Part shown: piece by piece, positions 19,042-36,938 of the stretch
How the letters are laid out: the number at the start of each line of letters is the position of its first letter
Position numbering within the stretch: position 1 is the first letter of the stretch
Source of the DNA: an uncultured bacterium
GTDB taxonomy: Bacteria > Edwardsbacteria > AC1 > EtOH8
Direction: 5' to 3'
DNA: 64,000 bases
NCBI GenBank assembly: GCA_937863685.1
Contig: CALMGM010000005.1
Location: forward strand, 1,138,217-1,202,216
The notes under the pieces: generated by a model
What the model was told of the DNA's origin: nothing
Seen by the model: only the letters and a program-made list of their open reading frames with translations
The model's database searches: none
Translations under genes and position numbers: made by a program

Positions 19042-19521
19042 ATGAAAAAGACTCCGGGAAAGAAGGCAAATCCAGATCTGGGAAAGATCAACCGGGTCCT
19101 GGCCAAATACAAGGGCAACAAGGGGGCCTTGATCCCGGTGCTGCAGGAAGTGCAGGTGGCGCTGGGTTTCCTGTCGCAGGACAGTTTGAGGGCCATCTCC
19201 GAGGGCTTGGCGATACCGCTGAGCCAGATCTACGGGGTGGCCACTTTTTACACCCAATTCCGTCTGAAACCCATCGGCAAGCACCTGGTGCGGGTATGCC
19301 ACGGAACGGCCTGCCATGTGGGCGGGGCCGAGAAGATCAGCGCGGCCATCGAGGCCGGCCTCAGCGTCAGGGACGGGGAGACCACGGCCGACGGCAAGTT
19401 CACAGTGGAATCGGTGGCCTGCCTGGGCTGCTGCAGTTTGGCCCCGGTGATGATGGTGGACAACGACACCTTCGGCCGGCTGACCCCGGAGAGCGCCATC
19501 AAGGCGGTCAAGGAATACTGA
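19042..19521 (+). CDS. NuoE-like thioredoxin-fold [2Fe-2S] subunit (24 kDa family)
   Basis: IYGVATFYTQFRLKPIGKHLVRVCHGTACHVGGAEKI...VACLGCCSLAPVMMVD. Confidence 0.93.
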   Translation: MKKTPGKKANPDLGKINRVLAKYKGNKGALIPVLQEVQVALGFLSQDSLRAISEGLAIPLSQIYGVATFYTQFRLKPIGKHLVRVCHGTACHVGGAEKISAAIEAGLSVRDGETTADGKFTVESVACLGCCSLAPVMMVDNDTFGRLTPESAIKAVKEY

Positions 19522-19661
19522 CCCGGTTTTACGGGACACGGATAAACACGGTTTGTTAAAAAAACTTGTTTTTTAACCACAGAGAACACAAAGCACACAA
19601 AGGAAACATTATTGTAGGGGCGAATGGTCATTCGCCCTTGGCGGCACCGCCCGGCAATACA

Positions 19662-19689
19662 TGTCATTCCCGCGCAGGCGGGAATCCAG
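19662..19689 (+). repeat. REP-like palindrome
   Basis: tgtcattcccgcgcaggcgggaatccag. Confidence 0.85.
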
Positions 19690-19777
19690 TCTTTGACCCC
19701 TCTCCAACCTCTCCCCGCAACGGAGAGAGGCCCATGGTTTGTAAAATAAATATTTTATATACAAGGAGGATCCTGTC

Positions 19778-21616
19778 TTGAAAAAAGCGACCTCTAAAGC
19801 CAAAACCCTTCCCAAAAAGAAGGCGGTAAAAAAGCCGGCGGCGCCGGACTACCGGATAGTGGTGGGCCTGGGCAGCTGCGGCATCGCGGCCGGCGGCCAC
19901 AAGGTCAAGGCGGCCCTGATGGAGAGCCTCAAAAAAGCCAAACTCAACGTCCAGGTCTCCGACACCGGCTGCGTGGGCATGTGCTACAGCGAGGTGCTGC
20001 TGGACGTCCACCACAAGAACGGCCAGGTCTACACCTACGGCAACATGACCCCGGACAGGATGGCGCGTTTCGTGGACGAGCACCTGGCCAAAGGGCAGCC
20101 GGTGGCCGACTGGCTGGTGAAGGCCAGCGACCGGGCCCTGCCGGACGACAGCTTTTATGCCAAGCAGAAGAGGATCGTGCTGCGCAACTGCGGCGACATC
20201 GATCCCGAAAAGATAGAGGATTACATGGCCCATGGCGGGTACCAGGCACTGGAGAAGGCCCTCAAGAAGATGTCTCCCGACGAGGTCATAAAAGAGGTGC
20301 TGGACTCGGGGCTGCGGGGCCGGGGCGGGGCCGGCTTCCCCACCGGGCGCAAATGGCAGTTCGCCCGGGGCTCCAGGGGCGACAAGAAATACATCGTCTG
20401 CAACGGCGACGAGGGCGATCCCGGGGCCTTCATGGACCGCTCGGTGCTGGAGGGCGACCCCCACAACGTGATGGAGGGGATGCTGATCGCCGGGTACGCC
20501 ATCGGGGCCGACGAGGGCTATTTTTACGTCCGGGCCGAATATCCCCTGGCGGTGGAACGGCTGAAACTGGCCATCGAACAGGCCAAGAAGAGGGGCTTTT
20601 TGGGCAAGAACATCATGGGCACCAAGTTCTGCTTCGAGATGAAGATCAAGGAGGGGGCCGGGGCCTTCGTCTGCGGCGAGGAGACCGCCCTGATGGCCTC
20701 CATCGAGGGCCAGCGGGGGATGCCCCGCCTGAGGCCGCCCTTCCCGGCGGTGTCCGGCCTGTGGGGCAAGCCCACCAACATCAACAACGTGGAGACCTTC
20801 GCCAACGTGCCCTGGATCATCCTCAACGGCTCGGCGGCCTTCGCCTCGCTGGGCACCGAGAAGAGCAAGGGCTCGAAGGTGTTCGCCCTGGCCGGCAAGA
20901 TCGCCCGGGGCGGGCTGGTGGAGGTGCCGATGGGCATCACCATCAACGAGATCATCCACGAGGTGGGGGGCGGCATCAAGGACGGCCGGGCTTTCAAGGC
21001 GGTGCAGATGGGCGGCCCGTCGGGCGGCTGCATCCCGGCGGCTTTGGGCAGCACCATCGTGGACTACGATTCGGTGGGCCAGACCGGGGCCATCATGGGC
21101 TCGGGCGGCATGGTGGTGATGGACGACACCACCTGCATGGTGGACATCGCCCGGTTCTTTTTGGATTTCACCCAGAAGGAATCCTGCGGCAAGTGCACCT
21201 TCTGCCGGGTGGGCACCAAGCGGATGCTGGAGATACTGGAACGGATCACCAAGGGCCGGGGCCAGGAGGGCGACATCGAGCTGCTGCTGGAGCTGGCCGA
21301 GAAGATAAAGATCTCGTCGCTATGCGGGCTGGGACAGACCGCGCCCAACCCGGTGCTGACCACCGTCAAATATTTCCGCCAGGAATACGAGGCCCATATC
21401 AAGGACAAGACCTGCCCGGCCCATTCCTGCAAGGAACTGCTGAAGTACGAGATCGTCCCCGAGAAATGCATCGGCTGCACCGCCTGCGCCAGGGTCTGCC
21501 CGGTGACGGCCATCTCGGGACAGGTGAAGAAACCCCACGTGATAGACCAGGAGGCCTGCATCAAGTGCGGCAACTGCGTGGCCAAATGCAAATTCGACGC
21601 CATAAAGGTGAGGTAG
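19778..21616 (+). CDS. NuoF/HydB-like NADH-binding FMN Fe-S subunit with N-terminal [2Fe-2S] and C-terminal 2x[4Fe-4S] domains
   Basis: GLRGRGGAGFPTGRKWQF, CNGDEGDPGAFMDR, ESCGKCTFCRVGTKRM, CIGCTACARVCPV...CIKCGNCVAKC. Confidence 0.93.
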   Translation: MKKATSKAKTLPKKKAVKKPAAPDYRIVVGLGSCGIAAGGHKVKAALMESLKKAKLNVQVSDTGCVGMCYSEVLLDVHHKNGQVYTYGNMTPDRMARFVDEHLAKGQPVADWLVKASDRALPDDSFYAKQKRIVLRNCGDIDPEKIEDYMAHGGYQALEKALKKMSPDEVIKEVLDSGLRGRGGAGFPTGRKWQFARGSRGDKKYIVCNGDEGDPGAFMDRSVLEGDPHNVMEGMLIAGYAIGADEGYFYVRAEYPLAVERLKLAIEQAKKRGFLGKNIMGTKFCFEMKIKEGAGAFVCGEETALMASIEGQRGMPRLRPPFPAVSGLWGKPTNINNVETFANVPWIILNGSAAFASLGTEKSKGSKVFALAGKIARGGLVEVPMGITINEIIHEVGGGIKDGRAFKAVQMGGPSGGCIPAALGSTIVDYDSVGQTGAIMGSGGMVVMDDTTCMVDIARFFLDFTQKESCGKCTFCRVGTKRMLEILERITKGRGQEGDIELLLELAEKIKISSLCGLGQTAPNPVLTTVKYFRQEYEAHIKDKTCPAHSCKELLKYEIVPEKCIGCTACARVCPVTAISGQVKKPHVIDQEACIKCGNCVAKCKFDAIKVR

Positions 21617-21618
21617 AA

Positions 21619-24600
21619 ATGCAGATAAACATCACATTCAACGGCAAACAGATCGCCTGCGATTCCAATCAGACCATAGTCGACGTGGCCAAGGAGCAGG
21701 GGGCCTTTGTGCCCACCCTGTGCCACGACAGCAAGCTGGAGCCCTACGGCTCCTGCTGGGTGTGCCTGGTGGAGGTCAAGAACGCCCGGGGCTTCGTGCC
21801 GGCCTGCGCCACCAAGGTGATGGACGGGATGGTGGTGGAGACCGAGAACGACCGGGTGAAGGCCGCCCGCCAGATGGCGCTGGGACTGCTGCTGTCCAAC
21901 CACTCCGGCGACTGCATCGGGCCCTGCGTGGACACCTGCCCGGCCGGCTGCGACGTCCAGGGCTACACCGCGCTGATCGCCAACGGCATGGAGGCCGAGG
22001 CCATCAAGCTGATCAAAGAGACCCTGCCGCTTCCCGCCTCGCTGGGCCGGGTCTGTCCGCATCCCTGCGAGACCGAGTGCCGCCGCAGCCTGGTGGAGGA
22101 GCCGGTGTCCATCTGCTACCTCAAGCGGCATGCGGCCGATTTCGATCTCAACTCCGGAAAACCATACATGCCGCCAATTGCTTCCGACACCGGCAAGAAG
22201 GTGGCGGTGGTGGGAGCCGGCCCGGCCGGGCTGACCGCCGCCTACTACCTGCGCCAGAAGGGCCACCAGGTCACCATCTTCGAGGCTTTGCCCAAGTCCG
22301 GCGGATGGCTGCGCTACGGCATTCCGCAGTACCGCCTGCCCAAGGAGGTGCTGGACCAGGAGGTGAAGACCGTCACCGACCTGGGCGTTGAAGTGAAGTA
22401 CAATCAGAAATTGGGCCAGGACATCACCCTGGAAGGCCTGAAAGGCCAGTATGATGCGGTATTTCTGGGCATGGGGGCCCACGCCTCCTCCAGGATGGGA
22501 GTGGAGAACGAGGAGGACCGCGGAGTGGTGGCCGGAATAGATTTCTTAAAACGTTTGACCCTGGGCGAAAAGTTCAACGTGGGAAAAAAGGTGGCGGTCA
22601 TCGGCGGCGGCAACACCGCCATCGATGCCGCCCGGACCTCCCTGCGGCTGGGAGCCGAGGAGGTGTTCATCGTCTACCGCCGCTCGGAAAAGGAGATGCC
22701 GGCCAATCCTTTCGAGATCGAGGAGGCCAAGCACGAGGGGGTCAAGTTCCAGTTCCTGACCGCCCCCACCCGGGTGATCGCCTGCAGCCACGACAAGAAC
22801 GGGGCCATCTCCTGCCAGAAGATGGAGCTGGGCGAGCCGGACGCTTCGGGCCGCCGCCGTCCGGTGCCGGTCCAAAATTCAGATTTCCATATCGAGGCCG
22901 ACCTGATCATCTCCTGCATCGGGCAGAGCCCCGACCTGTCCGGATTGGGTGAGAATCATAATCTGAAAGTGACCCGCTGGAGCACTCTGGAGACCGATCC
23001 CGAAACCGGGGCCACGGCCGATCCCAAGATATTTGCCGCCGGAGACATGGCCACCGGAGCGGCCACCGTGGTGGAGGCCATCGGCGGGGCCCGCAAGGCG
23101 GCCCAGGGGATCGATGAATTCTTAAAATACGGCAAGATCGAAAAGAAGATAAAACAATACAACATCACCAAGGGCAAGATCAACCAGGTGCCCAAGGAGC
23201 TGTTTGCCACCGAGCCCAAAGTGGCCAAGGCCAGGATGCCGATGCTGGAGCCGTCGCAGAGAAGAAATTTCGACGAGGTGGAGAAGGGCTTCTCCCGCAT
23301 CACTGCCATCGAGGAGGCCAAGCGCTGCCTAGAATGCGGCTGTGCCGACATGCAGGAATGCAAGCTGCGCGACTACGCCACGGTCTACGACGTGATGGTC
23401 CAGCGCTTCATGGGCGAGGTCAAGCAGCATCCCATCGACGACAGCCATCCCTTCCTGGTGCGCGATCAAAGCAAATGCGTGATGTGCGGCCGCTGCGTCA
23501 GGATGTGCCTGGAGGTGGTGGGGGCGGCGGCTTTGGGCTTCGTTTATCGCGGGTTCAATGCCATCGTGGCCCCCACCATGGAGAAGCCCTATCCCGAGTC
23601 GCCCTGCGTATCCTGCGGGGCCTGCATCGAGACCTGCCCGGTGGGGGCATTGACCGAGCGGGTGCGGCACATCAAGCCCTCGCCCTGGAAGATGGAGAAG
23701 ATCCCCTCGGTGTGCACCTTCTGCGGGGTGGGCTGCGGCCTGGACCTGAACATCATGGACAACAAGGTGGTCCGGGTCACCGGGAACGAGGACAGCCCAG
23801 TCAGCCAGGGCTCGCTGTGCTTCAAGGGCAAGTTCGGGTTCGAACTTATCCATTCACCCGAGCGTTTGACCGCACCGCTGGCCAAGGCCGGAGCCAAACA
23901 CAAGGAGATCGCCTGGCCCGAGGCCATATCCAAGGTCAATTCCGAGATCGACGCCATGGTCAAAAAATACGGGCCGGATTCGGTGGCGGTGTTCGCCTCC
24001 GGCCGGACGAGCCTCGAAGAGGCCGAGGGCCTGCGTTCCTGGGCGGAGAAGAAGGGGGTCAAACAATTCGGCAGTTTTGCCGGAGGGTATGCGTCAGGCA
24101 CCCTGATCGATATTCTGGGCTCCTCGGCGGGCAAAGGATATCAGTCATTGTCCGAAGCCAAAAATATCATACTTATCGGCTCTGATACATATGCCGAGCA
24201 TCCGGTGTTCTCCCAGATGGTCAGAAAGGCCGTCAAGGGCGGGGCCAAGCTGTATTCCCTCCAGGAGAAGGCCACCAAGCTGGGCGAGATCGCCGCACAG
24301 GAACTGGTCATTAAAAAAGGCGGAATATCCTTTGCCATGAACGGGATTCTCAAGAACCTGCTAGCCAAGGGCCAGTCCAAATATTCCGGCTACAAAGAAT
24401 TGGCCAAGAGCTTGGGCAAACTGAGCGCGGCGGCGGTGGCCACCAACAGCGGATTAAAGAAGGCCGAGATAGACGGGCTGGCCAAGCCGCTGCTGGAAGA
24501 TCAGAATTGCCTGCTGGTATTCAACGCCGACGCAGTGGATGCCGAAACCATCAAGGCCCTGGCCAATATTCTCCTGCTGATGGACGTTCCGGAGAATTTC

Positions 24601-25107
24601 ATCGCCCTGCGGGCCAAGGCCAATGCCTCGGGTGTCGAACGGTTCGTCAACGCCGATGCCTCCGGCTTATCGAAGATCAAAGCCGCGGTATTGCTCAACG
24701 AAGATCCGGCCGGCAGCCTGGAGGACGGCCCCAAGATCAAGACCGCCCTGGCCAAGCTGGAAAAGCTGATAGTCTGCGATATGTTCCTGACGGAGACCGC
24801 CAAGCTGGCCGACATTGTTTTGCCGGCAGCGGCTTGGGCCGAGAGCGACGGCAGTTTTATCAACAGCGAGGGCCGGTTGCAACATCTCAAGGCCGGCATC
24901 CAGCCTGCCTCGGGCAAGACCACCAAGCAGGTACTGATTGAACTGGGCGGCTCAGCCATGCCCAACCTGCCCAAGGAGAAATCGGGCCAAAAGCAATTCG
25001 GCGTTCCCAGTCTGAAGAAGGGCAAGGCGATCAGCGCCGGGTTCGCTTCGGACGTGATGGAGAAAAAGGCGGCCGAGCTGAAGAAGAAAGCGGGACTGGT
25101 CCGGTAA
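21619..25107 (+). CDS. Multidomain Fe-S flavoprotein: [2Fe-2S] ferredoxin + GltD/NfnB-like FAD module + 2x[4Fe-4S] + FdhF/NuoG-like molybdopterin-fold domain lacking the Cys/Sec ligand
   Basis: MQINITFNGKQIACDSNQTIVDVAKEQG; VAVVGAGPAGLTAAYYLRQKGHQVTIFEA; CVMCGRCVRMC; SVCTFCGVGCGLDLN...GSLCFKGKFG; no Cys/Sec where FdhF has its metal ligand (FAGGYASGT). Confidence 0.88.
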   Translation: MQINITFNGKQIACDSNQTIVDVAKEQGAFVPTLCHDSKLEPYGSCWVCLVEVKNARGFVPACATKVMDGMVVETENDRVKAARQMALGLLLSNHSGDCIGPCVDTCPAGCDVQGYTALIANGMEAEAIKLIKETLPLPASLGRVCPHPCETECRRSLVEEPVSICYLKRHAADFDLNSGKPYMPPIASDTGKKVAVVGAGPAGLTAAYYLRQKGHQVTIFEALPKSGGWLRYGIPQYRLPKEVLDQEVKTVTDLGVEVKYNQKLGQDITLEGLKGQYDAVFLGMGAHASSRMGVENEEDRGVVAGIDFLKRLTLGEKFNVGKKVAVIGGGNTAIDAARTSLRLGAEEVFIVYRRSEKEMPANPFEIEEAKHEGVKFQFLTAPTRVIACSHDKNGAISCQKMELGEPDASGRRRPVPVQNSDFHIEADLIISCIGQSPDLSGLGENHNLKVTRWSTLETDPETGATADPKIFAAGDMATGAATVVEAIGGARKAAQGIDEFLKYGKIEKKIKQYNITKGKINQVPKELFATEPKVAKARMPMLEPSQRRNFDEVEKGFSRITAIEEAKRCLECGCADMQECKLRDYATVYDVMVQRFMGEVKQHPIDDSHPFLVRDQSKCVMCGRCVRMCLEVVGAAALGFVYRGFNAIVAPTMEKPYPESPCVSCGACIETCPVGALTERVRHIKPSPWKMEKIPSVCTFCGVGCGLDLNIMDNKVVRVTGNEDSPVSQGSLCFKGKFGFELIHSPERLTAPLAKAGAKHKEIAWPEAISKVNSEIDAMVKKYGPDSVAVFASGRTSLEEAEGLRSWAEKKGVKQFGSFAGGYASGTLIDILGSSAGKGYQSLSEAKNIILIGSDTYAEHPVFSQMVRKAVKGGAKLYSLQEKATKLGEIAAQELVIKKGGISFAMNGILKNLLAKGQSKYSGYKELAKSLGKLSAAAVATNSGLKKAEIDGLAKPLLEDQNCLLVFNADAVDAETIKALANILLLMDVPENFIALRAKANASGVERFVNADASGLSKIKAAVLLNEDPAGSLEDGPKIKTALAKLEKLIVCDMFLTETAKLADIVLPAAAWAESDGSFINSEGRLQHLKAGIQPASGKTTKQVLIELGGSAMPNLPKEKSGQKQFGVPSLKKGKAISAGFASDVMEKKAAELKKKAGLVR

Positions 25108-29968: not shown

Positions 29969-30062
29969 GTCATCCTGAGGGAACTTCAAAACCGAACAGG
30001 TTGGAGAATGACAGGTCACCCATTCGATTTGTCAAGCATGTTTGTTTTCTCAGGGTGACAAA
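29969..30062. repeat. Dispersed repeat, family of the 17425/17687 elements
   Basis: gtcatcctgag...cacccattcgatttgtcaagc...tctcagggtgacaa. Confidence 0.6.
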
Positions 30063-30092
30063 GTGCATTGGTTAATATTTAAGGATATTAAA

Positions 30093-31733
30093 TTGAAGAT
30101 AACCATCTGCCAACTCAATCCCACGGTCGGTGATGTCGAGGGCAATGCAAAAAAGATCACCGGCATGTTGGCCCAAACCAAAGCACAGAGACCGGATCTG
30201 ATAATCTTTCCGGAACTGTTTCTCACCGGATATCCGCCCCGCGACCTGTTGGAGAAGGAGTGGTTCATACAACGCTGCAGCGCAGCCATCAGGGAACTGA
30301 CCGAGGCTTCCAGGGATTATCCGGAGACCGGCATCCTCTTCGGCGCACCCACCACGACGGGAAGGGATACCGGCAAGGGGCTTTTCAATTCGGCGGTTCT
30401 CGTCCATAACGGGAAAGTCACCTGCCGTCATAAGACGCTGCTGCCCAGCTATGACGTGTTCGACGAGGCCAGATATTTCGATCCGGCAGATTCTGTGGGC
30501 TTGGTCGATTTCAAGGGCGAAAAGCTGGGCATAACCATCTGCGAGGATGCCTGGAACCATCCCGATCTGTGGCCCAAGCGCAAGCCTTACGATTACGACC
30601 CGGCGGCCGACCTGGCCAAGATGGGCGCCACTCTGCTGATAAACATCTCGGCCTCGCCTTTTGAGGCCGGCAAGGAAAGGACCAGATTCGAATTGATCGG
30701 GCGACACGCCCAAAAGCACGGATTGCCGTTCATCTATGTCAATCAGATCGGCGGCAACGACGAGCTGGTGTTCGACGGCCGGAGTTTCGGAGTGGACAAG
30801 AACGGGCAAATGGCTTGGTCTCTGCCAGCCTTCCAGGAAGATGTGGTGACCATCGACAGTTCCCTGCCCGGCAAACCGGCCGAGCCTCCGGTTCATGATG
30901 AGATAGAATCCATTTATTTGGCTCTCAGGCTGGGGGTGAGGGACTATTTCCGCAAGTGCGGTTTCAACCGGGCAGTAGTGGGACTTTCGGGGGGAATCGA
31001 TTCGGCGGTGGTGGCGGCCGTAGCCGCCGAAGCCTTGGGACCGGAGAATGTGCTGGGGATCACCATGCCGTCTCCCTTCTCGTCGCAGGGAAGCGTGGAC
31101 GATTCCCGCAAACTGGCTGGCAAGCTGGGCATTGAGCTCGAGGAGATATCCATCACTGAGATCTACGAGAAATACCTGGAGATACTGGAACCCCATTTCG
31201 AAGGCCGGACGCCGGACATCGCCGAGGAGAACATCCAGGCCCGGATCCGGGGGAATATACTGATGGCCTTCTCCAACAAGTTCGGGCACCTGGTGCTGAC
31301 CACCGGCAATAAAAGCGAGCTGGCGGTGGGCTACTGCACGCTGTACGGCGACATGAGCGGCGGACTGGCGGTGATCTCGGACTTGCCCAAGACCACGGTC
31401 TACCGGCTGGCCGACCATATCAATCGCGAGCGGGAGGTAATCCCCCGGGTCATAATCACCAAGGCCCCGTCAGCCGAGCTGAGGACCGGCCAGAAGGACC
31501 AGGACACCCTGCCGCCTTACGACGTCTTGGACAGGATACTGGAGGGCAACTTGGAAGATGGTTTATCTATCGATCAACTAGTCGGGCAAGGGCTTGAAAG
31601 AGAGACCGTTGAATGGGTGGTAAGAACCGTCCGGCAGAACGAATACAAGCGCCGACAGGCGGCCCCGGGAATCAAAGTTACCGGCAAGGCCTTCGGCGGA
31701 GGACGCCGGATGCCGATAGCGGCCAGGTATTGA
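30093..31733 (+). CDS. nadE: Glutamine-dependent NAD+ synthetase
   Basis: Amidohydrolase domain (KITICQLNPTVGDVEGNAKK...LPSYDVFDEARYF) plus synthetase domain (VVGLSGGIDSAVVAAVAAEALG); TTG start. Confidence 0.95.
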   Translation: MKITICQLNPTVGDVEGNAKKITGMLAQTKAQRPDLIIFPELFLTGYPPRDLLEKEWFIQRCSAAIRELTEASRDYPETGILFGAPTTTGRDTGKGLFNSAVLVHNGKVTCRHKTLLPSYDVFDEARYFDPADSVGLVDFKGEKLGITICEDAWNHPDLWPKRKPYDYDPAADLAKMGATLLINISASPFEAGKERTRFELIGRHAQKHGLPFIYVNQIGGNDELVFDGRSFGVDKNGQMAWSLPAFQEDVVTIDSSLPGKPAEPPVHDEIESIYLALRLGVRDYFRKCGFNRAVVGLSGGIDSAVVAAVAAEALGPENVLGITMPSPFSSQGSVDDSRKLAGKLGIELEEISITEIYEKYLEILEPHFEGRTPDIAEENIQARIRGNILMAFSNKFGHLVLTTGNKSELAVGYCTLYGDMSGGLAVISDLPKTTVYRLADHINREREVIPRVIITKAPSAELRTGQKDQDTLPPYDVLDRILEGNLEDGLSIDQLVGQGLERETVEWVVRTVRQNEYKRRQAAPGIKVTGKAFGGGRRMPIAARY

Positions 31734-31912: not shown

Positions 31913-32776
31913 ATGGCCTCTCAGGTAGCTCTTAAATTGAAGTGCCCCGCCTGCCGCAAGAGCCTGATGGACAAGGCACACAAGATCGACGACCAATCCG
32001 CCATCGATCTGAGGGTGGATGTCAAGGGGAAAAAGGGTTGGATGAGGCTCTCCCCGGTCTACGGCAGCTATAAGATTGAAAGCAAATTTCCCATCGCCAA
32101 GGATACAGTAGTAAAAATATCTTGCCCCCATTGTCAGGCTATTCTGACCGATCACACCGAATGCGATATCTGCAGGGCTCCTATGGTGCCGATGATGCTG
32201 GAGGAGGGGGGCAGGGTCTTCATCTGCTCCCGTAAAGGTTGCAAGAAACATTTCCTGGAGTTCGAGGATGTGGACAAGGCGCTGACCAAATTCTACGATA
32301 CTTATGCTCTGGGCGGAGAGCGGCAGAGAGCCCTGCAAGGCATGAAAAGGCCGGCAGTCGAGGAGCCAGACGCAAAAGAGATCATGGCCAGCGGCAGTTT
32401 TCTGCAGTCCTATTGCCCGCATTGCAAACATACTTTGATAAATCACTGCTCATTGACCTTTACGGTGGTGGGCCGGGGCGGGGAAGAGGGGATGCTGCTG
32501 CTATCGCCCTATCTTAACGTATTCACCAACAGCTCGACCATCGAGATACCCCACGGGGAGGAGGTCAAGGACCTGCGGTGCCCGCATTGCGATCACTCCC
32601 TGCTGGAGAAGCTCAAGAAATGCGAGCGGTGCGGATCGCGGATAGCCAAGATCACGGTGGGAGCCATGCACAAACTTATCACCTTCTTCATCTGCCTCCG
32701 CAAGGGCTGCACCTGGCATGGCATCTCGGGTGAGGATACCAAACTGATAATGCTGGAAGACAGCCAGGAGTGGTAA
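31913..32776 (+). CDS. Uncharacterised Cys-rich protein with two tandem zinc-ribbon-like domains
   Basis: Two copies of CPxC...LSP...CPHCxxxL...CxxC...F.ICxxxGCxxH; co-directional with nfnAB, 1 nt upstream. Confidence 0.85.
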   Translation: MASQVALKLKCPACRKSLMDKAHKIDDQSAIDLRVDVKGKKGWMRLSPVYGSYKIESKFPIAKDTVVKISCPHCQAILTDHTECDICRAPMVPMMLEEGGRVFICSRKGCKKHFLEFEDVDKALTKFYDTYALGGERQRALQGMKRPAVEEPDAKEIMASGSFLQSYCPHCKHTLINHCSLTFTVVGRGGEEGMLLLSPYLNVFTNSSTIEIPHGEEVKDLRCPHCDHSLLEKLKKCERCGSRIAKITVGAMHKLITFFICLRKGCTWHGISGEDTKLIMLEDSQEW

Positions 32777-32777
32777 G

Positions 32778-33614
32778 ATGTATCCGATAATAGACCGCCA
32801 GGAACTGGCCAAGGGCAACATGGTGCTGATCACGGTGGAGGCCCCCCAGATCGCCCGCAAGATCAAGCCCGGGCAATTCGTGGTACTGAGGATCAACGAG
32901 ACCGGCGAGCGGATCCCCCTGACCGTGGCCTACAAGGACCTGTCCCACGGCACCATCACCATCATCTTCATGGTGATCGGAAAATCCACCGCCCTGCTGG
33001 GGTCGCTCAAGGTGGGCGACGCCATCAAGGACCTGGTGGGTCCGCTGGGCGTCACCGAGGAGTTCACCAAACTGGGGACCATCGTCGGCATAGGAGGCGG
33101 CTCGGGCATTGCGGTGCTGCATCATCTGCTGCAGGGCTATGGGGCCGCCGGCAACAAGCTGGTGGGCATCATCGGCGCCCGGGAGCGGGACCTTCTGATT
33201 CTGGAGGATGAGATGAAAACCCTCTGCCAGCAGCTGATCGTCGTTACCGATGACGGCAGCTACGGGATGCACGGTCTGGTGACCGACGCCCTGAAGACCC
33301 TGGTGGAGCGGGACAATCCGGAGCCGATAGACCTGGTGATCGCGGTGGGGCCGCTGGTGATGATGCGGGCGGTGTGCCAGCAGACCAAGCTGTATAATAT
33401 CAAGACCCTGGTCAGCCTGAACCCGGTGATGGTGGACGCCACCGGAATGTGCGGGGCCTGCCGGGTATCGGTGGGGGGAAAGACCCGTTTCGCCTGCGTC
33501 GAGGGGCCGCATTTCGACGGGCATCAGGTGGATTTCGACGAACTGATCCAGCGCAACAACACCTACGGCAGGGACGAGAAGACCTCGCTCCTGTTCTCCA
33601 TCAGAGCCAAATGA
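32778..33614 (+). CDS. NfnA/SudB-like ferredoxin-NAD(P)+ reductase subunit (FAD/NAD-binding, [2Fe-2S])
   Basis: PGQFVVLRINETGERIPLTVA, GTIVGIGGGSGIAVL, MCGACRVSVGGKTRFACVEGPHFDGHQVDF. Confidence 0.92.
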   Translation: MYPIIDRQELAKGNMVLITVEAPQIARKIKPGQFVVLRINETGERIPLTVAYKDLSHGTITIIFMVIGKSTALLGSLKVGDAIKDLVGPLGVTEEFTKLGTIVGIGGGSGIAVLHHLLQGYGAAGNKLVGIIGARERDLLILEDEMKTLCQQLIVVTDDGSYGMHGLVTDALKTLVERDNPEPIDLVIAVGPLVMMRAVCQQTKLYNIKTLVSLNPVMVDATGMCGACRVSVGGKTRFACVEGPHFDGHQVDFDELIQRNNTYGRDEKTSLLFSIRAK

Positions 33615-33627
33615 TAATGAGCCGATC

Positions 33628-35445
33628 ATGTCCGAATTGAAGAAAGAGCAGTTCGATAAGGTCGCCCCCGGCACCGAGTTCACCATCTACTGTCCGCACT
33701 GCCACCAGGGGCTGAATCTTTACGAGCCGAAGTCCAATAAGACCTGGTTCCGCCTGAATATCATTTCCGGAGAACGGAAGGGGGAGTTGTTTTTAAGCCC
33801 CAAGGTGGATGAATTTGAGCAGCGCTCCGGCCTGGAGCTGGCCGAGGGGCAGGTGATGGAGGACATGTCCTGCCCCTTGTGCCAGGCTTCGCTGATCGAG
33901 CCCGAGGCCCACTGCGGAGAATGCGATTCTCCGGCCGCCAAGATTATGATCACGGTCCATTCCCGGCTGATACCGTTCTATATCTGCACCAAGGTCGGCT
34001 GCCACTGGCACGGGATATCCCGGGCCGACGAACTGAGGATCAAACCCAAGGTGGCCCGGCAGAGGGTGCCGGAACAGGATGCCCTCCTGAGGATCCGCAA
34101 TTTCCAGGAGGTGCCCTACGGGTTCACCAGGGAAACAGCCCTGATCGAGGCCCACCGCTGCCTCAACTGCAAGGACCCCAAGTGCCGCATAGGGTGCCCG
34201 GTGGACATCGACATTCCCGGATTCATCGGGCTGATCAAGCAGGAGAAATTCGCCGAGGCCGCCCAGAAGATCAAGGAGAAGAACGCCCTGCCGGCCATCT
34301 GCGGCCGGGTCTGCCCCCAGGAGGATCAGTGCGAAAAAAACTGCATCCTGGCCCTGAAGGAGACCCCGGTGGCCGTAGGCAGCCTGGAGCGTTTCGCGGC
34401 CGATATGGAACGGGAGACCCAGTCGGTGGTGATCCCCAGAAAAGCCCCGGCCAACGGGATCAAGATCGCGGTGGTGGGTAGCGGGCCGGCCGGTCTGACC
34501 CTGGCGGCGGACATGGTGGTCAAGGGCTACAGCGTCACCCTGTATGAGGCGCTGCACAAGCCGGGGGGGGTGCTGGTCTACGGCATTCCCGAGTTCCGGC
34601 TGCCCAAGGCCATCGTTGATTCCGAGATCAACTATCTGCGCCGGATGGGGGTCAAGATCGAGGTCAATTCACTGATCGGCCGGCTGTTCGACCTTAACGA
34701 CCTTTGGGAGATGGGGTACAATGCGGTATATCTGGCGGTGGGGGCCGGGCTGCCGGTGTTCATGAGCATCCCCGGGGAGAACCTGTGCAATATCTATTCG
34801 GCCAACGAGTATCTCACCCGGCTGAACCTGATGAAGGCCTACGCCTTTCCGGATTACGACACCCCGGCCCCCAAGGGCCGCCAGGTGGTGGTGGTGGGCG
34901 CCGGAAACGTGGCCATGGACTGCGCCCGGACCGCCCTGCGCATGGGCAGCCGAGAGGCCACCATCGTCTACCGTCGTTCCCGCGGCGAAATGCCGGCCCG
35001 GCTGGAGGAGATCAATCACGCCGAAGAGGAGGGCATCAAATTCCGACTGATGACCAATCCGGTGCGTTTCATCGGCGACGACCAGCGCTGGGTGCGCCAG
35101 ATAGAATGCGTCCAGATGAAGCTGGGCGAGCCGGATTCCTCGGGTCGCCCCAGGCCGATACCCATCGCCGGATCGAACTTTTTGATCGACACCGACCTGG
35201 TGATCGTGGCGGTGGGCGCCGGGCCTAACCCGGTGGTCTTTTCCGGGTTTCCCGACATCGAGAGGAACAAGCCGGGATATATAAAACCGCTGACGGCCTC
35301 AGGGCGCACCAACCTGCCGGGGGTCTGGGCCGGAGGGGATATCGTCACCGGCTCGGCCACCGTCATTTCGGCCATGGGTATGGCCCGGCTGGCGGCCGAC
35401 GATATGCACAGTTATCTGAACAAAAAACAGGGTTCCTGGCTCTAA
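33628..35445 (+). CDS. NfnB/GltA-like oxidoreductase with an extra N-terminal Cys-rich zinc-ribbon-like domain
   Basis: C-terminal about 450 aa GltD-like (KIAVVGSGPAGLTLAADMV, VVVVGAGNVAMDCARTALRMG); N-terminal about 150 aa matches the domains of the 31913-32776 protein. Confidence 0.92.
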   Translation: MSELKKEQFDKVAPGTEFTIYCPHCHQGLNLYEPKSNKTWFRLNIISGERKGELFLSPKVDEFEQRSGLELAEGQVMEDMSCPLCQASLIEPEAHCGECDSPAAKIMITVHSRLIPFYICTKVGCHWHGISRADELRIKPKVARQRVPEQDALLRIRNFQEVPYGFTRETALIEAHRCLNCKDPKCRIGCPVDIDIPGFIGLIKQEKFAEAAQKIKEKNALPAICGRVCPQEDQCEKNCILALKETPVAVGSLERFAADMERETQSVVIPRKAPANGIKIAVVGSGPAGLTLAADMVVKGYSVTLYEALHKPGGVLVYGIPEFRLPKAIVDSEINYLRRMGVKIEVNSLIGRLFDLNDLWEMGYNAVYLAVGAGLPVFMSIPGENLCNIYSANEYLTRLNLMKAYAFPDYDTPAPKGRQVVVVGAGNVAMDCARTALRMGSREATIVYRRSRGEMPARLEEINHAEEEGIKFRLMTNPVRFIGDDQRWVRQIECVQMKLGEPDSSGRPRPIPIAGSNFLIDTDLVIVAVGAGPNPVVFSGFPDIERNKPGYIKPLTASGRTNLPGVWAGGDIVTGSATVISAMGMARLAADDMHSYLNKKQGSWL

Positions 35446-35573: not shown

Positions 35574-36938
35574 ATGCCAATGTCTCACATCACCGACGTG
35601 ATCGCCAAGGTCAAGGCCAAGAATCCGGGAGAGCCGGAATTCCATCAAGCGGTAGAGGAGGTCATGAAGACCCTGGAACCGACCGTAGCCAAGCACCCCG
35701 AGTTCGTCAAATGGAAGATATACGAACGGATCTGCGAACCGGACCGGGTGGTCATGTTCCGGGTGCCCTGGGTGGACGACAAGGGCGAGGTCCAGGTTAA
35801 CAAGGGTTTCCGGGTCCAGTTCAACAACGCCATCGGGCCCTACAAGGGCGGACTGCGCTTCCATCCTTCGGTCAACCTGGGCATCATCAAGTTTCTGGGT
35901 TTCGAGCAGATCTTTAAGAACAGCCTGACCACCCTGGCCATGGGCGGCGGCAAGGGAGGCTCGGACTTTGATCCCAAGGGCAAGAGCGACCTGGAGGTGA
36001 TGAAGTTCACCCAGTCATTCATGCGCGAATTGTTCCGTCACATAGGAGCCGATGTGGACGTGCCGGCCGGGGACATCGGAGTGGGAGGCCGGGAGATCGG
36101 ATTCATGTACGGATATTATAAAAAGGTCCGCAACGAGTTCACCGGCGTGCTGACCGGCCGGGCCCGGGAATACGGCGGATCGCTGATCCGGCCCGAGGCC
36201 ACCGGCTACGGTTCGGTCTATTTTGGGGCCGAGATGCTGGCCACCCGCAAGAAGGACTACAAGGGTCTGCGCTGCATCGTGTCGGGCAAGGGCAACGTCA
36301 CCCAGTACACCATCGAGAAGATCAACCAGTTGGGCGGCAAGGCCCTGTCCATTTCCGACTCCAGCGGCACCATCATTGACGAGGAAGGCATCAGCGCCGA
36401 GAAGCTGAAGTACGTCATGGAGCTGGCCGAGGTCAAACGCGGCCGGGCCAAGGAATACGCCGACAAGTACAAGAGCGCCAAGTATTACGAGGGCAAGAGC
36501 GTCTGGGACGTGGTCAAGGAACAGGGCATCAAGTTCGACTGCGCCTTCCCTTCCGCCACCCAGAACGAGATCAACGCCGAGCACGCCCAGGCCATGGTCA
36601 AGAACGGCTGCTTCCTGGTCTCCGAGGGCGCCAACATGCCCTCCGACCTGGCGGCCATCAAGATCTACCAGGACAACAACGTGCTGTACGGGCCGGCCAA
36701 GGCGGCCAACGCCGGCGGCGTGGCCACCTCGGGCCTGGAAATGGCCCAGCAGAGCTCCCGCTGGTACTGGAACCGCGAGGAAGTGGACCAGAAGCTGCAG
36801 AGGATCATGCAGGCCATCCACCAGCAGTGCCTGGATGCCTCCGAGACCTACGCCACCAAGGGCGACTATCTGGCCGGCGCCAACATCGCCGGGTTCGTCA
36901 AGGTGGCCAAGGCCATGGTGGCCCAGGGCGTGGTATAG
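35574..36938 (+). CDS. gdhA: Glutamate dehydrogenase (hexameric, NADP-type family)
   Basis: YKGGLRFHPSVNLGIIKFLGFEQIFKNSLTTLAMGGGKGGSDFDPKGKS. Confidence 0.95.
   Translation: MPMSHITDVIAKVKAKNPGEPEFHQAVEEVMKTLEPTVAKHPEFVKWKIYERICEPDRVVMFRVPWVDDKGEVQVNKGFRVQFNNAIGPYKGGLRFHPSVNLGIIKFLGFEQIFKNSLTTLAMGGGKGGSDFDPKGKSDLEVMKFTQSFMRELFRHIGADVDVPAGDIGVGGREIGFMYGYYKKVRNEFTGVLTGRAREYGGSLIRPEATGYGSVYFGAEMLATRKKDYKGLRCIVSGKGNVTQYTIEKINQLGGKALSISDSSGTIIDEEGISAEKLKYVMELAEVKRGRAKEYADKYKSAKYYEGKSVWDVVKEQGIKFDCAFPSATQNEINAEHAQAMVKNGCFLVSEGANMPSDLAAIKIYQDNNVLYGPAKAANAGGVATSGLEMAQQSSRWYWNREEVDQKLQRIMQAIHQQCLDASETYATKGDYLAGANIAGFVKVAKAMVAQGVV

Follow-up and report, generated by a model that had tools for sequence, protein, structure and literature searches.

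The 64,000-nt stretch of DNA analyzed here (hereafter the window; contig CALMGM010000005.1, from an uncultured bacterium of the Candidatus Edwardsbacteria) carries nfnAB genes together with three copies of a Cys-rich module of ~115 residues, two of them in a stand-alone protein of 287 amino acids (aa), which we label Zr, and the third at the start of NfnB. Our results show that the module is an uncatalogued domain family and that it is not specific to Nfn. Since it recurs in several phyla on three kinds of electron-handling machine, it probably serves them in common, as a part for docking or control, and is not a single-genome quirk. We tentatively propose, with a confidence slightly short of even, that a metal stabilises it, that it serves in the docking or gating of NfnB-type and Bfu-type electron-transfer complexes and that Zr is a bivalent adapter. 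Below, G-numbers denote the genomes compared and L-numbers the loci read in them.

A Cys-rich module outside the catalogued families

Zr (31913-32776, plus strand, as are all features of the locus; open reading frame (ORF)) contains module copy 1 (Zr1, residues 7-119, 31931-32269) and copy 2 (Zr2, residues 164-275, 32402-32737), both placed by hidden Markov model (HMM) match and tree. Copy 3 occupies residues 19-134 of NfnB (33682-34029), as judged by HMM match, alignment, tree and an AlphaFold2 model. The original prediction, made from the letters of the DNA, had placed two modules in the 287-aa protein and one on NfnB, and its coordinates were exact. Local alignment scores were 104 for copy 1 and copy 2, 108 for copy 1 and the NfnB copy and 211 for copy 2 and the NfnB copy, as compared to a mean of 27-29 and a maximum of 48-58 for shuffled controls (500 per pair). 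C-P-x-C, L-S-P, C-P-x-C, C-x2-C and C-x4-C-x2-H are common to all three.

Four Cys/His ligand pairs were kept in 69 of 71 modules, with considerable variation within the pairs. Pair 1 is Cx2C, Cx3C or Cx3H, and pair 3 is mostly Cx2C, with Cx4H in the NfnBs of the phylum of G039. The last pair is Cx4C, usually followed by x2H, and its last Cys and the His are lost in the NfnBs of G280 and G211. Besides the ligands, a middle motif (LSPxYGSY or LDPxYGSF) is conserved. The ligand pattern makes metal binding likely, as was predicted at the outset, and the free exchange of Cys and His at the ligand positions favors zinc and disfavors an electron-carrying iron site; probably each module holds two zincs. 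An AlphaFold2 model of the NfnB copy, made from an eight-row alignment, gave a compact all-beta domain (predicted local distance difference test (pLDDT) 82.9, predicted TM-score (pTM) 0.76), whose strands apparently form a two-fold run.

No match identifying the module was obtained from Pfam or NCBIfam with the window proteins and 20 diverse relatives. Sub-threshold zinc-ribbon matches fell mostly on the two central Cys pairs, over ~20-35 residues, with scores of 25.4-26.2 for DZR (gathering threshold 27.3) and 20.5-22.1 for Zn_ribbon_6 (threshold 25). Sequence searches of PDB, with single sequences and with a profile, returned no relative of the module, and a search of viral contigs found none either. 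Foldseek of the module model against PDB and viral models gave nothing at E<=0.001. The best match was the small subunit 8hyj_I of RNA polymerase V, which we take to be RPB9-like with two zinc ribbons, and it was not significant (E 0.16, TM 0.21-0.28). A rubredoxin-like Fe(Cys)4 site would require two CxxCG knuckles and four retained Cys, whereas the NfnB copy has no CxxCG knuckle and several modules have His in place of a ligand or lack it altogether. Thus, the module lies outside the characterised families of Pfam, NCBIfam and PDB, and the known, unrelated family that would have spoken against the original prediction was not encountered there. In the open-licence literature we found no paper on zinc ribbons with NfnB, on electron bifurcation plus glutamate synthase with zinc ribbons, or on RnfB-NfnB fusions.

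The original prediction had also named a redox relay as one possible role. In such a relay, rubredoxin-like iron or an Fe-S cluster would sit at the Cys sites, through which electrons would pass to or from NfnB. With the exception of G002, modules of the Nfn lineage (see below) were found exclusively with electron-transfer enzymes, the copy on NfnB lies right next to the [4Fe-4S] domain, and one of 20 modules showed weak, sub-threshold similarity to the rubrerythrin-like model NF033497 (E 0.0019). The variability of pairs 1 and 3, the last ligands lost in two NfnBs, the missing rubredoxin knuckles and an NfnB core that keeps all its own clusters nevertheless disfavor a relay, and we regard it as quite improbable.

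An nfnAB locus with two additions

Zr is followed after 1 base by nfnA (32778-33614, 278 aa, the NAD(H)-side subunit with flavin adenine dinucleotide (FAD) and [2Fe-2S]) and, after a further gap of 13 bases, by nfnB with its N-terminal module (33628-35445, ORF, 605 aa). With gaps this short, the three genes very likely form a single transcript. NfnA matched PRK06222 with 373 bits (cut-off 220) as well as DHODB_Fe-S_bind, and contains ERIPLT (ERxPxT) and the [2Fe-2S] motif DATGMCGACR-x10-CV with an Asp ligand; the published motif is DGTGMCGxCRx10CV (PMC6405883). The NfnB body (residues 141-605, 34048-35442; profile matches and PDB relative), comprising two [4Fe-4S] clusters, FAD and an NADP(H) domain, matched the TIGR01316 gltA model with 548 bits (cut-off 472) over residues 155-597, and the closest PDB relative of NfnB is 4ylf chain B (residues 147-604). 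Both [4Fe-4S] motifs, RCx2Cx4Cx3CPV and GRVCPQExQCx3C, are present, and the description of the rest of NfnB as a normal GltD-like body was thus correct. By sequence the locus qualifies as NfnAB, and a bifurcating NADPH/NAD+/ferredoxin activity is predicted. As the core motifs of NfnB are intact the module replaces nothing, and the only extras over an ordinary nfnAB are the NfnB module and the Zr gene. The last module ligand, H128, sits 50 residues ahead of the first [4Fe-4S] ligand, C178, a spacing that attaches the module to the cluster domain.

Linkage to nfnAB across phyla

The context counts come from genome samples weighted towards relatives of the locus, and neighboring genes elsewhere were mostly assigned by visual inspection and from their similarity to a small set of query proteins; the associations of Zr, NfnB and BfuC rest on gene order and fusion. 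Zr homologues were found in 9 genomes of two phyla, the window's genome included, and the order Zr-nfnA-[module]nfnB in eight genomes of two phyla. Four of the 10 Candidatus Edwardsbacteria genomes examined have nfnAB, in each case fused and with Zr upstream, and the phylum of G039 shows the same order in 4/4 genomes (two genera). In the Actinomycetota class searched, 9 of 249 genomes have a fused NfnB, which adjoins nfnA where this is readable; the short contig of G258 shows only one long ORF, and nfnA adjacency is unreadable there. The linkage to nfnAB that was predicted is therefore conserved: fused NfnBs occur in three phyla, in two of which the two-module gene adjoins nfnA. Directly upstream of nfnA, in the place of Zr, two Actinomycetota metagenome-assembled genomes (MAGs) encode a protein with five cyclic-nucleotide-binding domains (L012:3697-6246, L011:1047-3656).

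The fusion itself is a rare variant. In a sample of 386 genomes, NfnB scored above the TIGR01316 cut-off in 192, with the fusion in 7 and without it in 185. The fused bodies formed one clade among 52 NfnB bodies (SH-like approximate likelihood ratio test (SH-aLRT) 99) and the modules on NfnB formed one clade in a tree of 64 modules (98/89). Because bodies and modules both group in this way, the fusion is old and has been retained, and the simplest reading is that it arose once and was then kept or transferred across phyla.

Two module lineages on several hosts

The tree of 64 modules is divided by a 100/100 split, recovered in another tree. On one side, the Nfn lineage, are all NfnB fusions, Zr copy 2 and the single-module genes found next to Rnf; on the other, the second lineage, are Zr copy 1, the modules fused to BfuC, stand-alone proteins and the insertions in sensor kinases. 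Copy 1 of Edwardsbacteria Zr groups with BfuC-fused modules (98/84). Since copies 1 and 2 fall on either side of the split, Zr is, on the tree, a hybrid of both module lineages. The three homologous copies are thus not equally related, as copy 2 and the NfnB copy are of one lineage and copy 1 is of another.

Apart from that of G002, each of the 28 modules that the tree assigns to the Nfn lineage is on or beside an NfnB-type body. These include G480 and G639, of one family (two genera) in a fourth phylum, where an Nfn-lineage module gene lies beside an RnfB-NfnB fusion within the Rnf operon. In these loci RnfB is fused to an NfnB/GltD-like FAD/[4Fe-4S] body (L100:7774-9888, minus strand; L148:1254-3365, plus strand) and the single Nfn-lineage module gene follows.

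Modules of the second lineage occur as C-terminal fusions on BfuC (2Fe-2S_thioredx). The operons concerned encode this BfuC-module, a BfuB that often carries a fused NfnB body, a NuoG-like subunit and GltB. Operons with BfuC(-module), BfuB-NfnB body, NuoG-like subunit and the flavin mononucleotide (FMN) glutamate synthase domain of GltB were seen at L044:7859-14328, L087:6685-13084, L089:6855-13247, L149:8771-15142 and L035:7960-14846, and are candidates for a ferredoxin/NAD(P)H-linked glutamate synthase. In G015 and G554 the Bfu set with the module is followed by nfnAB, the hybrid operons reading BfuC-module, BfuB, NuoG-like subunit, nfnA, nfnB (L043:5924-12631, L090:7854-14469). The generalisation that every module sits with an NfnB-like body was ruled out by the operons of G010 and G172, which have BfuC-module, BfuB and GltB and no NfnB body. 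Many stand-alone copies lie near proS, trpS or gyrAB with no clear linkage, among them modules near proS in four genomes (L042, L088, L101, L102) and near trpS-scpA-scpB-HNH in two (L048, L094).

Two sensor histidine kinases (G062/L049:8243-10114, minus strand; G604/L099:6022-7884, plus strand) also contain a module, inserted into their HATPase domain. Both kinases have CxxCH-containing sensor regions, and their neighbors are cytochrome or iron-sulfur oxidoreductase-like genes. Kinase insertions of this kind, together with the cyclic-nucleotide-binding protein upstream of nfnA, make regulation by sensing the strongest rival to a docking role. The modules would then sense a metal, a thiol redox state or a small ligand and switch Nfn (and Bfu or Rnf), with Zr acting in trans. 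The kinases indicate that the module can plug into a signaling enzyme, the cyclic-nucleotide-binding protein occupies the position of Zr in two MAGs, and conservation of the middle motif extends beyond the ligands; a structural role would explain the insertion in the kinases just as well, and overall we consider a sensor unlikely.

Possible role of the module

We suggest that the compact all-beta, probably two-zinc domain would provide low-potential electron-transfer complexes with a surface for docking or gating. In NfnB the domain directly precedes the [4Fe-4S] domain and may lie on the side where published docking places ferredoxin, near the distal cluster (PMC6405883). Zr2, the sister of NfnB's own module, probably pairs with that module or with the NfnB body, possibly aided by the C-terminal tail of Zr (LEDSQEW, 32753-32773). 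The tail L-(E/Q)-D-S-x-E-W ends every Zr protein, the single-module proteins adjacent to Rnf end in QDSSDEW or QDASDEW, and such a tail suggests itself as a candidate docking peptide. Zr1, being of the BfuC type, probably holds or senses another partner, which may be ferredoxin, the Bfu/Stn-like enzyme of the window (see below) or glutamate dehydrogenase. The net effect would be that Nfn is assembled or controlled, and that its electrons are not carried by the module. There is a precedent in HydB of HydABC, where zinc serves as the hinge of a mobile domain (PMC9499530). The comparisons show the homology of the modules, a single origin of the fusion, its conserved linkage, purifying selection and the ligand pattern, whereas zinc as the metal, physical contact with NfnB, bivalent bridging and gating are all inferred.

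Several observations weigh against this proposal. In G002 (Edwardsbacteria, 99% complete) Zr is intact in the order nadE-Zr-gdh and nfnAB is absent, so Nfn cannot be the only client of Zr. Actinomycetota with a fused NfnB showed no Zr gene, and the adapter is thus dispensable there. The Bfu operons of G010 and G172 show that NfnB is not a universal partner of the module. Furthermore, the AlphaFold2 model of full-length NfnB (pLDDT 42.8, four-sequence alignment) was too poor to place the module. The view of the stand-alone gene as a dedicated Nfn subunit, put forward in the original prediction, is too narrow in the light of G002 and of the wider lineage of Zr1 on BfuC, sensor kinases and stand-alone proteins. 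The relay proposed with it is disfavored by the Cys/His exchanges and the ligand losses described above.

G002 also bears on the possibility that Zr belongs to glutamate/NAD metabolism (gdh, nadE) and that nfnAB landed beside it and gained its module by recombination. A single-module gene lies directly downstream of a glutamate dehydrogenase (GDH) gene in G555 (L098:7769-8182, minus strand), GDH and GltB recur near BfuC-module operons, and the association of module genes with gdh (G002, G555/L098, G067/L035) is suggestive, although inconstant. No gdh adjoins the gene in the G039 phylum (4/4) or next to Rnf in G480 and G639, yet an NfnB-type body is present in both settings, and a single clade of NfnB-fused modules with a matching clade of bodies is unlike local recombination. 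We find this origin improbable.

Zinc ribbons are often structural, and the module could be a plain folding-stability domain that merely stabilises NfnB, with Zr as a paralogue that has no role at Nfn. That 185 of the 192 NfnB-bearing genomes in the sample lack the fusion agrees with this. In three phyla, however, separate genes have been kept next to NfnAB or Rnf-NfnB; their C-terminal tail is conserved and they are under purifying selection. The ratio of non-synonymous to synonymous substitution (Ka/Ks; Nei-Gojobori, some comparisons being saturated) was 0.06-0.18 in the modules where measurable. For the whole Zr gene it was 0.13-0.16 against three relatives and 0.13 against G002, which lacks nfnAB, and the linker of Zr was more relaxed (0.2-0.8). 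A role limited to stability thus appears very improbable.

A docking or gating module remains our preferred reading. In a wider form, which we hold to be rather unlikely, this undescribed metal-binding family would be a shared assembly or control element of Nfn, Bfu-glutamate synthase and Rnf-NfnB, and the hybrid Zr would bridge Nfn to a Bfu-type enzyme or ferredoxin in a redox supercomplex around glutamate/NADPH metabolism. Most work on electron-bifurcating enzymes has treated them as closed machines and leaves open how they are gated. Through a module found on Nfn, on Bfu and beside Rnf-NfnB, their assembly, control or access to ferredoxin could be approached by way of one common part, which lends itself to deletion and to addition in trans. 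Besides the uncatalogued domain family, the analysis brings to light two enzymes for which we found no description, the RnfB-NfnB fusion and the Bfu-NfnB-glutamate synthase operon.

Neighboring genes in the window

The locus is flanked upstream by nadE (NAD synthase, 30042-31733, plus strand; Pfam NAD_synthase), found likewise in L010 and G002, and downstream by gdhA (glutamate dehydrogenase, 35574-36938, plus strand; Pfam ELFV_dehydrog), adjacent also in L010 and G002. Both are syntenic neighbors whose membership of the unit is uncertain. A Bfu/Stn-like set lies 7-13 kb upstream of Zr-nfnAB (19042-25107, plus strand), consisting of BfuC (159 aa, 19042-19521), BfuB (612 aa) and, after these, a large protein resembling BfuA, which combines an NfnB-like body with a C-terminal part that appears to be molybdopterin-oxidoreductase-like. 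This BfuC has no module, unlike the BfuC of some other genomes.

Comparison with known systems

The module shares CPxC...CxxC knuckles with double zinc ribbons (Pfam DZR PF12773, Zn_ribbon_6 PF07191). It differs from them in having four pairs over ~115 residues and a conserved LSPxYGSY-like middle, the matches covering the central two pairs. With the BfuABC/HydABC/Stn family there are two points of likeness, as relatives of copy 1 sit on the C-terminus of BfuC, with BfuB and a NuoG-like subunit encoded in the same operon, and HydB has a separate zinc hinge; the zinc site of HydB is, however, a single 3Cys-1His site and not this module (PMC9499530). The terms zinc and glutamate synthase do not occur in the Bfu survey (PMC9304861). 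The four structural patterns of Nfn in a 2019 review (PMC6405883) include neither an NfnB module nor a two-module gene. As compared to NfnAB of T. maritima (4YLF) and P. furiosus (5JCA), both NfnA and the body of NfnB have their full length, the published motifs for FAD, [2Fe-2S] and two [4Fe-4S] clusters are present and the gene order is the usual one; the difference is the extra N-terminal module of ~140 residues on NfnB and the two-module gene upstream.

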